NCBI RefSeq assembly: GCF_009846865.1
Contig: NZ_WUWN01000009.1
Location: forward strand, 1-64,000
Source: Puerhibacterium puerhi
GTDB taxonomy: Bacteria; Actinomycetota; Actinomycetes; Actinomycetales; Cellulomonadaceae
DNA length: 64,000 nucleotides
Reading direction: 5' to 3'
In this document: positions 60,584 to 64,000 of the stretch, one piece after another
How the letters are laid out: every line of letters starts with the position of its first letter
Position numbering within the stretch: position 1 is the first letter of the stretch
The notes under the pieces: model-generated
The model's input: only the letters and a program-made list of their open reading frames with translations
Told to the model about the DNA's origin: nothing
Databases searched by the model: none
Program-made: the position numbers and the translations under genes

Positions 60584-60702
60584 CGCGGGCTCCCGAACCT
60601 GCCCCCGCACGGGTGATCCGGTCGCCGGGTGCCGCGGCCACGATGGTTCTGCCGGGGCGACCGCCCGGCACCGCGGTGAGGACCGACGAGGGAGCTGGGG
60701 TC

Positions 60703-61188
60703 ATGACCACGTTCACGGTGTGGAAGTACGACGAGCCGGAGGCCGCGCAGCGGACGGCCCGGATCCTGCAGGACGCCGCGGCCGACGGCCTCGTGACCGT
60801 CGTGGACCATGCGGTCGTCTCCTGGCCGCCGGGCGCCGACGCGCCCACGATGCACCACTCGCACGACGCGGGCCGGCGCACGGTCGGCTGGGGCGCGTTC
60901 TGGGGCGCGCTCGTCGGCACCCTGTTCCTCGCCCCCGTCGCGGGAGCGGCGGTCGGCGCGGCGGCGGGCGGCGCCAAGCGGGCCGTCGACGCCGTCGGGA
61001 TCGACGAGGAGCAGCTCGAGCGGATCCGGTCGGAGGTGACGCCCGGGACGTCGGCGCTCTTCGCCGTCACCGAGGGCGCCGACCTCGACCGGCTCGGCGA
61101 GCGGTTCCACGGCGTCGGCGGCCGGCTCGTGGAGACGAACCTGACCCCGGCCGAGCGCAGCACGCTGGCCGAGGTCTTCGACGTCTGA
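60703..61188 (+). CDS. DUF1269-type membrane protein
   Basis: 161-aa protein. A soluble N-terminus (TTFTVWKYDEPEAAQRTARILQ) is followed by HDAGRRTVGWGAFWGALVG, then a glycine-zipper hydrophobic hairpin (LFLAPVAGAAVGAAAGGA, about residues 88-108) and a C-terminal part with TSALFAVTEGADLDRL. This order is typical of DUF1269 proteins. ATG 60703 follows GAGGGAGCTGGGGTC. The family is uncharacterised, often associated with stress or membrane integrity. It is convergent with the SHOCT gene. Confidence 0.82.
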   Translation: MTTFTVWKYDEPEAAQRTARILQDAAADGLVTVVDHAVVSWPPGADAPTMHHSHDAGRRTVGWGAFWGALVGTLFLAPVAGAAVGAAAGGAKRAVDAVGIDEEQLERIRSEVTPGTSALFAVTEGADLDRLGERFHGVGGRLVETNLTPAERSTLAEVFDV

Positions 61189-61239: not shown

Positions 61240-61560
61240 TCAGCCGCCGAGGATCCGCGCCTTCTGCGCGGCGAACTCGGCGTCGGTGAGGACGCCCTGG
61301 TCGCGCAGCTCGGCGAGCTGGCGCAGCTGCGCGATCGTCGGGTCCGTCTCGCCGCCGGTCGGTGCCTCCGGCGCCGGGGCGTACTGGGGCTGCGGATACT
61401 GGGGCTGCGCGTACTGCGGCGGGTAGCCGGCAGCCTGGGCGCGCTGCGCATCCTGCTCCGCCCAGCGGCCCTGCTGGCGGCGCTGCACGCGGCCCGAGAC
61501 GGCGCTGGCCGTCCCGGCGATGACGGCGGTGCGGGCGACCCCGCGAAGCAGTCCGGGCAT
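61240..61560 (-). CDS. SHOCT-domain protein
   Basis: 106-aa protein. The N-terminal part is basic with a short Ala/Val stretch, the middle has Gln/Tyr/Pro repeats (YAQPQYPQPQYAP), and the C-terminal 30 residues are a SHOCT domain (IAQLRQLAELRDQGVLTDAEFAAQKARIL). Such short C-terminal domains are thought to mediate oligomerisation or targeting. It is 19 bp downstream of the DUF6325 frame on the same strand, so cotranscription is likely. Confidence 0.88.
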   Translation of the reverse strand: MPGLLRGVARTAVIAGTASAVSGRVQRRQQGRWAEQDAQRAQAAGYPPQYAQPQYPQPQYAPAPEAPTGGETDPTIAQLRQLAELRDQGVLTDAEFAAQKARILGG

Positions 61561-61579
61561 GGTGGTGCTCCTTCTCGGC

Positions 61580-62521
61580 TCAGTGGCCCTCTGCGGCGTC
61601 GAGCGCCGCGACCAGCGAGGGCACGGGGATCCTGCCGCTGGCGGCGATCATCCCGCCGCCGCGGCGCAGCGCCGCGGCGAACGGGGCCGCCCAGACGTTC
61701 TCGTAGACGAGCACTCCGGCCGCGCTGCCGGGCTGGAGCGTCGCGCCCGCCTCCTGCAGGTCGTCCTCGGCGAGGATCCCCGACGACGCCCCGTCGAACA
61801 CGGCGAGGTCGAAGTCCCCGTCGACGTCGAGGTCGTGCAGCTCGATGCCGGCCACGGTGCCGTCGGCGGCCTTCTCGACGAAGGCGAGGTCCAGCAGGCG
61901 GATGATGCCGCGGTCGACGAGGTCCACCAGGAGCGGCAGCGCCTCACCGTTCAGCTTGTTCTCGGGGAACTCGACCACGAGGTAGTCGACGGGCCCCATC
62001 TCGTCGATCGTCCGGTCCATCTCGCGCCCCTTCGTCCCCGTCCGGCCGCCCGGATCCCGAATGCTCTCTGCGCCCCCACCGTGCGCCGGGGCCCGGTTCC
62101 CGTCCTCACCCGCGCGGGGTGAGGACCCGCGCGCGCCGCCGCCGCCTCCGCCGCCGCCTCCGTCGTCGACGACGCTGTCCATCAGCGCGAGCACCTCGGA
62201 CAGGTCGACGTCGCGCACGGTGTACGACGACGTCTCGGCCGCCTCGGAACGGCTGATGCTGCCGAGCATCGCGCGCAGCACGATCCCCACGGGTCCGTGC
62301 ACGGTCACCTCCACGTCCGGCCGGCCGCCCGCCGGGACCGTTCGCAGCTCGCGCAGCTCGAGGCCGAGCGCCGCCAGACGCTGCAGCACCCCGTACAGCG
62401 CGGACTGGTCCCGCACCGCGAGCTCGAGGACGGTGCAGGTGGTCGAGCGGCGGACGCCCAACTCGCTCAGATCCGTGCCCTGGCGGACCGCTCCCACGAC
62501 GGTCAGCTCGACCTGCGTCAT
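61580..62521 (-). CDS. ACT-like segment joined in frame to DUF6325
   Basis: One uninterrupted frame of 313 codons with two unlike parts. Residues 1-120 (TVLELAVRDQSALYGVLQRLAALGLEL reads like an ACT/ferredoxin-like fold; cited key words LYGVLQRLAALG and VEVTVHGPVG) are followed by a Gly10 and low-complexity linker containing a terminator-like hairpin and codons with unusually many A/T third bases. From ATG 62020 the rest (146 aa, GPVDYLVVEFPENKLNGEA, LAVFDGASSGILAEDDL) is a complete DUF6325 protein with AAGGGGCGCGAG upstream. It may be two genes whose separating stop was lost, or a real fusion. GTG 62530 is another possible start. Confidence 0.7.
   Translation of the reverse strand: MTQVELTVVGAVRQGTDLSELGVRRSTTCTVLELAVRDQSALYGVLQRLAALGLELRELRTVPAGGRPDVEVTVHGPVGIVLRAMLGSISRSEAAETSSYTVRDVDLSEVLALMDSVVDDGGGGGGGGGARGSSPRAGEDGNRAPAHGGGAESIRDPGGRTGTKGREMDRTIDEMGPVDYLVVEFPENKLNGEALPLLVDLVDRGIIRLLDLAFVEKAADGTVAGIELHDLDVDGDFDLAVFDGASSGILAEDDLQEAGATLQPGSAAGVLVYENVWAAPFAAALRRGGGMIAASGRIPVPSLVAALDAAEGH
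62102..62126 (-). terminator. Hairpin inside the linker of the DUF6325 frame
   Basis: GTCCTCACCC, loop GCGCG, GGGTGAGGAC: a perfect 10-bp stem located between the two protein segments. Its strength is that of an intergenic terminator, although no stop codon precedes it in frame. Confidence 0.6.
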
Positions 62522-62614
62522 CCGGACCACCCCGCCGTCATCGGTCCCGCGAGGACGCGCGGCCGACAGCCGCGCGCACGCCGTCCAGCGTGCGCGCGTC
62601 GTCGCGCGGGGGGA

Positions 62615-63121
62615 TCACCCGGCGGGGGTGGCGCCGCAGTACGTCTTCATGGCCCGCGTCACCCCCGCCCAGCTCTGGCGCACCTCGGCCAGGGACTCCT
62701 CGGCGGTCGCGCGCGCGTCGGCTGCGCCGGATCGCAGCGCGGCGCCGTAGTCGCGCAGCCGCGCCTCCAGGTCCTCGATCGCCGCGCTGGCCCGGTCGGC
62801 GGCCGTGTCGTCGTCCTGCTGCTGGGCCTCGGCGTCGAGCCGGTCGAGCTGGTCGAGAACCGACTGCACGGCGATGATCTCCACCTGGCCGCCGGCGCTG
62901 GGCGTGCCCGCGCTCGGCGGCGCGCTCGGCACGCGCGACGACAGGCTGTCCGGTCCGCCCGCGAGCAGCTGCTCGACCTGCACGGCGACCGCGTCGTAGC
63001 GCACGCACGGGCCCGACCCGCCGGCCTGCGAGCAGGCGCCGAGCGCCAGGGCCGCGGTCACGGCGGCGACGGCGGCGCCCCGACGTCGCCGGGTGGCTCC
63101 GGCCCCGCTCGACACGTCCAT
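62615..63121 (-). CDS. Hypothetical lipoprotein with coiled-coil character
   Basis: 168-aa exported protein. The signal peptide (RRRRGAAVAAVTAALALGAC) ends in lipobox LGAC, Cys30. The mature part has a Ser/Pro linker (VPSAPPSAGTPSAGG) and then long amphipathic helix pattern (VLDQLDRLDAEAQQQ, AIEDLEARLRDYGAALR), ending with a second cysteine in MKTYCG that could pair with the one in GPCVRYDAV. ATG 63121 follows GGGAGTCCGCGG. No family is recognised. It is oriented with the DUF6325 and SHOCT genes and may be part of the same transcript. Confidence 0.8.
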   Translation of the reverse strand: MDVSSGAGATRRRRGAAVAAVTAALALGACSQAGGSGPCVRYDAVAVQVEQLLAGGPDSLSSRVPSAPPSAGTPSAGGQVEIIAVQSVLDQLDRLDAEAQQQDDDTAADRASAAIEDLEARLRDYGAALRSGAADARATAEESLAEVRQSWAGVTRAMKTYCGATPAG

Positions 63122-63255
63122 CCGCGGACTCCCGTCCTGCTGCCGTCCCGTCGTCGCCCTCGCCTCGCCCTCGCCGGCGCCCGCGCCGTCGTCGTCGCCG
63201 TCGCTGTCGTCGGCGCGCGCCGCCGCCACGGTACGAGCGGCCGGGCGTTCGTGTG

Positions 63256-63301
63256 TCACCCGACCTGGGTGATCGCCGGCGGGCAGCGGCGCTCGTACTC
63301 T
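63256..63301 (+). promoter_or_regulatory. Dyad and leaderless promoter of the MalT-like regulator
   Basis: TCACCC-N5-GGGTGA (63256-63272) precedes TACTCT (63296-63301), which ends 6 nt before ATG 63308. The dyad lies just ahead of the -35 position, a typical activator or autoregulatory site. The gap to the divergent lipoprotein gene is shared. Confidence 0.6.
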
Positions 63302-63307
63302 CGTCGT

Positions 63308-64000
63308 ATGGTCTCGGTCCGAGCGGGTGCCGAGCCGTGGCTCCGCGTGCGAGCCCCGGCCGCCGTGGGGCCGACGCGCGCCCGCACGAGCGTCCCCGTG
63401 CTTCCGCGCGCGCTGGTCCGCCGGCCCCGCCTCGAGGCGTCGCTCGACACCGCCGTCGAGCGACGGCTCACCCTGGTCTCGGCGGGACCGGGCTGGGGCA
63501 AGACGACGACGGTCGCCGCGTGGGCCCGGACGCGTGCGGGGCGCGTCGCGTGGGTCACTCTCGAGCCCTACGACGACACCCCGACGACGCTGTGGGCGGA
63601 CGTCCTGGCGGCGGTGCGCGGTACCGGCGTCGCACCGCCGGGACACCCGCTGGACGCCGTCCAGATCCCCGCCCGGTTCACCTCCGACCTGCTGCGCCGG
63701 CTGCTCTTCGCGGTCGACATGCTGCCCGCGCCCGTGGTGCTGGTGCTCGACGACTTCCACCACGTCGCCGACCCGGAGGTGCTCGAGAGCATCGACGACC
63801 TGCTGCGCTACCCGCTGCCGCTGCACCTGGTCGTGCTGACCCGCCTCGACCCGATGCTGAGCCTGCAGCGGCTGCGCGGCCGGGGCGAGGTGGTCGAGCT
63901 CGGCGCCGGCGACCTGGCCTTCGACGAGTCGGACGTGGCGTCCCTCGGGGCGCTGGAGGGCCGCCGCCTCGCGCCCGCGCAGGTCGACCGGCTCCTGGCC
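63308..64000 (+). CDS. MalT-like LuxR-family ATPase regulator, 3' end beyond window
   Basis: The first 231 residues of a large STAND-type regulator. After an Arg-rich N-terminus come SVPVLPRALVRRPRLEASL (the conserved entry motif), the Walker A loop SAGPGWGKTTTVAAW (about residue 60) and Walker B VLVLDDFHHVADPEV, then LTRLDPMLSLQRLRGRGEVVEL. MalT-like proteins continue with TPR-like repeats and a C-terminal LuxR helix-turn-helix, which are not visible here. TACTCT stands 6 nt before the ATG. It is divergent from the lipoprotein/DUF6325/SHOCT group and a candidate regulator of it. Confidence 0.88.
   Translation, partial: MVSVRAGAEPWLRVRAPAAVGPTRARTSVPVLPRALVRRPRLEASLDTAVERRLTLVSAGPGWGKTTTVAAWARTRAGRVAWVTLEPYDDTPTTLWADVLAAVRGTGVAPPGHPLDAVQIPARFTSDLLRRLLFAVDMLPAPVVLVLDDFHHVADPEVLESIDDLLRYPLPLHLVVLTRLDPMLSLQRLRGRGEVVELGAGDLAFDESDVASLGALEGRRLAPAQVDRLLA

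Follow-up and report, generated by a model that had tools for sequence, protein, structure and literature searches.

The locus lies at the right end of a 64,000-nucleotide stretch of Puerhibacterium puerhi DNA (contig NZ_WUWN01000009.1, positions 1 to 64,000), hereafter the window. Its central feature is a single open frame on the minus strand, comprising an N-terminal A-B region, a linker and a DUF6325 domain (Table 1). The frame encodes 316 residues if GTG 62530 is the start and 313 residues if ATG 62521 is; the latter is more likely. DUF6325 (PF19850) occupies residues 178–312, scoring 38.2 bits against the Pfam curated cut-off of 23.4. Upstream are a lipoprotein-like gene and a divergent large regulator. 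Downstream are a SHOCT gene and a DUF1269 gene. At 62615–62617, a TGA in the dyad of the fused gene's promoter doubles as the stop codon of the lipoprotein-like gene.

A preliminary description, made from the letters of the window, had reported one stop-free frame joining two protein segments, a perfect 10-bp hairpin between them, A/T-ending codons in the linker and an internal ATG, preceded by AAGGGG, opening a complete DUF6325 protein of 146 residues. The frame was open on re-reading, the hairpin (loop of 5 nt) and the internal start were present, and the A/T-ending codons were seen on codon reading. The glycine tract, given there as ten residues, is nine by codon count. The N-terminal segment had been called ACT-like. 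No Pfam family, ACT included, matches window 62165–62521 at E ≤ 5. Structure models of this segment are of low confidence; in a fold search with a poor model (pLDDT 55) the highest-probability matches were Lrp-type regulators, at E 0.65. Neither sequence nor fold comparison establishes the ACT assignment.

Table 1. Features of the fused locus and its neighbourhood, in window coordinates.
Feature	Position	Strand	Remarks
Fused ORF: A-B N-terminal region, linker, DUF6325	61580–62530	−	Open frame; 13 other genomes share the fusion
A-B region, about 119 aa, two short units	62165–62521	−	No Pfam family; separate genes in other actinobacteria
Gly9 tract	62135–62161	−	In-frame insertion missing from nearest fused relatives (codons, linker lengths)
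Internal promoter dyad, TCACCC-N5-GGGTGA	62106–62122	−	Core of 10-bp hairpin 62102–62126
Predicted −10 hexamer of internal promoter	62078–62083	−	A 62082 and T 62078 are +24 and +28 from the dyad
Shine-Dalgarno AAGGGG of internal start	62027–62032	−
DUF6325 protein alone, 146 aa	61580–62020	−	Internal ATG
Fused gene's own promoter dyad	62615–62631	−	1 mismatch; −10 at 62587–62592
Lipoprotein-like gene, 168 aa	62615–63121	−	Upstream; no confident family
Perfect dyad between lipoprotein-like gene and divergent regulator	63256–63272		−10 TACCGT 63228–63233 (−); TACTCT (+)
Large ATP-binding LuxR (MalT-type) regulator, 907 aa	63308–64000	+	Extends past the window, ending at contig position 66031; GerE 48.1 bits, AAA_22 33.5 bits
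SHOCT protein	61240–61560	−	Downstream of DUF6325; SHOCT 39.4 bits
Weak dyad upstream of DUF1269 gene (frame 60613–61188)	60600–60616	+	2 mismatches

Loci for comparison were selected by similarity to the fused protein of the window. Some match was found in 110 of 221 family genomes searched. The N-terminal part and DUF6325 share one frame at all 14 loci read (own genome and 13 others; genera g1, g7 and g20); all 14 belong to one actinobacterial family, and kinship makes counts over them non-independent. An initial candidate, G188 (L206), carries DUF6325, has no A-B region by profile and was excluded. The genus has one further genome, in which no match was found. The A part alone, a short and insensitive query, was searched order-wide in 396 genomes; it matched 5 genomes at E ≤ 1e-4, the own genome included, and revealed no further fusion.

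The hairpin core recurs in front of DUF6325. At ≤1 mismatch, TCACCC-N5-GGGTGA has 31 matches in the 200 nt before the DUF6325 core of 88 loci; other 200-nt bins hold 0–4 matches, except for 7 at −600 to −400, mostly the upstream promoters of fused genes. The dyad is present at this stringency in 34 of 112 unfused loci (shuffles average 0.23) and absent from their +0 to 250 control region. Spacers of 0–12 nt other than 5 give 0–2 matches each in the same 112 loci. Carriers include Gordonia, Nocardioides, Actinomycetospora, Brachybacterium, Streptacidiphilus, Amycolatopsis and Cellulosimicrobium. In Streptomyces a dyad with ≤2 mismatches occurs in 3 of 25 loci, two of these badly placed; in Oerskovia it occurs in 0 of 4. 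Among the fused linkers, 9 of 14 carry it at ≤1 mismatch and 10 of 14 at ≤2 (shuffles 0.017). The hairpin core behaves as a protein-binding DNA site, which is here a prediction.

Promoter elements follow the dyad at a fixed distance. Counted from the dyad end, A+24 and T+28 are found in 69% and 66%, respectively, of 29 non-redundant unfused sites. They correspond to the A−11/T−7 pair of a −10 hexamer. Class II activator sites sit near −42; given A+24/T+28, the dyad centre is predicted near −43 with fixed −10 spacing, which is a class II layout. The full promoter pattern was defined as dyad, 23 nt, ANNNT. In the own 3.9-Mb genome, with ≤2 mismatches allowed, it is matched 38 times and its reversed version 6 times; at ≤1 mismatch there are 14 matches, with none for the control. 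Seven matches are perfect, and as the linker is one of them, the hairpin exceeds what chance would give. All 14 sites at ≤1 mismatch have an ORF start 7–106 nt further on. Genes behind them include DUF6325, the fused gene, lipoprotein-like, P-type ATPase, MFS transporter, SHOCT-ending and DUF1269-like genes (names other than Pfam matches assigned by eye). With a spacer of 4 the own genome has 1 full-pattern match against 14 with a spacer of 5, but of 61 family genomes 60 contain full-promoter matches with a spacer of 4, many of these matches in one repeated coding-like sequence, so that genome counts alone cannot separate the two boxes. A near-identical spacer-4 match recurs in many family genomes, e.g. 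G005:C4:13709, and resembles conserved coding sequence.

On comparison with unfused relatives, the linker is the promoter of DUF6325 captured as coding DNA. In L058 DUF6325 is a separate gene with a different gene upstream, and its non-coding promoter region is identical to the linker of fused L047 at 120 of 144 aligned bases, with single-base gaps. In Georgenia (L064), Nocardioides (L100) and a Propionibacteriaceae MAG (L115), DUF6325 is a gene of its own, preceded by separate A or A-B genes. The suggestion of the preliminary description that intergenic DNA had become coding linker is thus borne out by the matching non-coding promoter of L058 and by the separate genes of other actinobacteria.

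Signals for two products are kept. A dyad with ≤2 mismatches stands upstream of the fused gene at 14 of 14 loci, 73–113 nt before the N-domain; A+24/T+28 are in exact register in 10 of these and one base off in L035, L049, L050 and L051. Inside the frame, a strong Shine-Dalgarno sequence and a start codon are kept in all 14 fused genes, consistent with an internal in-frame start. The strength of this Shine-Dalgarno is equalled by 1 of 122 other in-frame ATG/GTG codons; that of P. puerhi is the weakest of the 14. Since the linker still resembles a working promoter, production of the joined protein and also of DUF6325 by itself is probable. We regard the gene as a three-part fusion (A, B and DUF6325) that would retain the promoter and ribosome-binding site of DUF6325 as its linker and would yield fused and free DUF6325, with a probability of roughly 0.78.

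Under the proposed mechanism, an activator, probably one whose DNA-binding domain is of the LuxR type (GerE), would bind both dyads, whose centres lie near −43. Transcription from the upstream promoter would give a long mRNA and an A-B-DUF6325 protein of about 33 kDa. The internal promoter, together with internal initiation on the long mRNA, would give DUF6325 alone, of about 16 kDa, plus the SHOCT protein. The A-B part might be an optional regulatory or docking domain, which is a guess. A further claim, favoured with less confidence, is that the linker has long been in double service, as a regulated promoter in its DNA, belonging to an uncharacterised actinobacterial regulon whose box is a spacer-5 relative of that of BldM, and as codons of a fusion driven by a second copy of that promoter, so that one regulator would set the ratio of fused to free protein.

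The principal alternative is that the fusion protein only is made and that the internal promoter and start are slowly decaying leftovers of the pre-fusion state. Such decay would fit the four fused genes whose linkers lack the dyad (L036, L037, L038 and L048) and a linker composition intermediate between coding and non-coding (GC1/2/3 of.84/.67/.81). Against decay, A+24 and T+28 are both present in 10 of 10 dyad-bearing linkers (≤2 mismatches), though nearby positions are free to vary. Of 3276 codons in the two domains, 2.1% end in T, as do 23 of the 295 remaining linker codons; T+28, as a third-codon base, explains part of the A/T-ending codons of the linker. The Shine-Dalgarno and start are kept even in the four linkers without the dyad. 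We consider this alternative unlikely. In the same four linkers a different hairpin, of GCACCGGG-N5-CCCGGTGC type, lies directly before the Shine-Dalgarno.

A second alternative, very unlikely, is a frame open by accident, with DUF6325 made from its own promoter only and read-through from A-B without function. Stops are scarce in high-GC DNA, and the protein sequence of the linker is weakly conserved, as an accidental frame would allow. Against this, linkers of the 14 fused genes are 72–159 nt long, every length is a multiple of three, and stops number 0 in frame 0 and 3 and 24 in the other two frames. The distance from dyad to domain core has six values among the ten dyad-bearing linkers, and all ten share a single phase; the 23 unfused loci are spread 14, 5 and 4 over the three phases. 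With no stop in frame, ribosomes that initiate at A-B are bound to read on into DUF6325.

The hairpin had been described as terminator-like, and a third alternative is that it acts as RNA, as a terminator or attenuator between the two parts. The perfect 10-bp stem of the window would suit such a role. No run of at least four T follows any of 53 dyads, and no intrinsic terminator was found in 61500–63400; the hairpin of the window, which has no T-run, does not fit an intrinsic terminator. Arm pairs over the 53 dyads number 318, of which 266 are unchanged, 31 broken, 20 G-U and 1 compensatory. Rfam gives chance matches only at the hairpin, far below gathering scores. A constant spacer of 5 and a constant distance to the −10 are what a DNA site would show, and an RNA role appears highly improbable.

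Recent fusion in this genome, by a lost stop or by slippage in the GGC tract as first proposed, has next to no probability. In its favour, the glycine tract is restricted to this genome among the 14. Against it, 13 other genomes, in two other genera, are fused without the tract, and the nearest relatives (L032–L034) have linkers 42–48 nt shorter that are still in frame. Sequencing error behind the open frame is rejected likewise; 14 assemblies agree. In the fused orthologues the frame and the DNA signals of the linker are conserved, and its protein sequence poorly so. The preliminary description had looked to related genomes for two separate genes as support for recent fusion, and to a fused protein with a conserved linker in orthologues for the opposite. 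Separate A or A-B and DUF6325 genes do exist in relatives; the fusion is nevertheless shared. Orthologues are indeed fused, with a linker kept as DNA signals and frame and not as protein sequence.

As judged from the shared frame, the fusion is old and not particular to the P. puerhi genome. Fused, unfused and partly lost states are all found among living relatives, as read from their loci. On the DUF6325 tree (125 rows, few columns) the fused state requires 3 changes, versus 13.5 in shuffles; because the columns are few, the history may be either a single origin with losses or more than one origin.

The A-B unit is also found elsewhere. Other actinobacteria have A as a short gene of about 70–90 aa whose end overlaps, or falls just short of, the beginning of a second short frame, B (L025, L030, L053, L054 and L100; B identified by eye). 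In g7 genomes A-B also occurs without DUF6325: the A-B profile matches 11 loci, made up of 10 out of 11 retrieved for this comparison and L021, with a SHOCT-like tail at the C-terminal end in 9 (L207–L214 and L216) and none in 2. Three scanned tails score 25.9, 26.8 and 28.7 bits for SHOCT (cut-off 27). DUF6325 and SHOCT-like proteins are themselves neighbours elsewhere. Because both types of fusion are seen, A-B, on the profile matches, pairs by fusion with either of the two, DUF6325 or a SHOCT-like protein. At L021:1764–1970 an A-B gene keeps the linker, a perfect dyad and the −10, with no DUF6325 beyond, an orphan promoter at the gene end.

The divergent 907-aa LuxR/MalT protein is a candidate regulator of the dyad promoters. 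A relative of it lies within 1.5 kb of 11 of 14 fused genes. Over 74 other loci, the dyad shows no association with a LuxR/MalT regulator located up to about 4 kb away (4 of 20 versus 16 of 54, p = 0.56); co-occurrence does not support the adjacent protein as a demonstrated binder, and it stays a candidate only. The own genome has 32 GerE matches.

BldM has a LuxR-type DNA-binding domain. In the parts of PMC4125116 (Al-Bassam 2014) that treat Streptomyces Group I promoters, the half-sites form a TCACcC/GgGTGA palindrome in a 16-bp site, and BldM is a homodimer of an atypical response regulator and mainly an activator; the Group I box is also quoted in part of PMC8914203. The half-sites TCACCC and GGGTGA are perfect in the window, and a LuxR-type activator is proposed here because they resemble that box. 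The published site, as given there, has 16 bp and a spacer of 4, whereas the dyad here has 17 bp and a spacer of 5; no site with a spacer of 4 at ≤1 mismatch was seen in the 112 unfused or the 14 fused loci. BldM itself is therefore not proposed as the regulator. The word SHOCT is absent from the main text of PMC4125116.

In gene fusion in general, neighbouring genes become one frame. Here the intergenic promoter and start persist as a linker instead of being lost. Cas11b and the SpaO short form are examples of in-frame internal starts, by which a single gene yields a long protein together with a short C-terminal product. In contrast to these, the linker here holds the whole predicted regulated promoter of a once separate gene, and the unfused state persists in relatives. 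The literature searched yielded nothing pertinent on comparable fused promoters and no paper that names DUF6325. Unfused relatives have the same domain in the same order, DUF6325 beside a SHOCT gene; the present locus differs from them in the N-terminal fusion of DUF6325 to the A-B unit. Going by PMC11237479, the SHOCT partners might hint at assembly on the membrane side, which is a guess.

The locus would be a clean case of gene fusion proceeding without loss of the second gene's control. A single silent change at T+28 could separate promoter function from protein sequence, which makes the idea directly testable. The dyad delimits a candidate regulon (DUF6325, SHOCT, DUF1269, P-type ATPase, MFS transporter and others) of mostly unknown gene functions. 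In G209, at C5:132482–132696 and C6:6809–6875, dyad-like matches overlap, some about 22 nt apart, and have a tandem-repeat look. Five perfect full-promoter matches lie within 26 kb in G006 (C1:418571–444472), around the DUF6325 match at 431042, as a clustered regulon. To the right of the window, at G000:C89:68887–69010, two more dyads lie between a divergent P-type ATPase gene and a SHOCT-ending gene; they likely belong to the same regulon.
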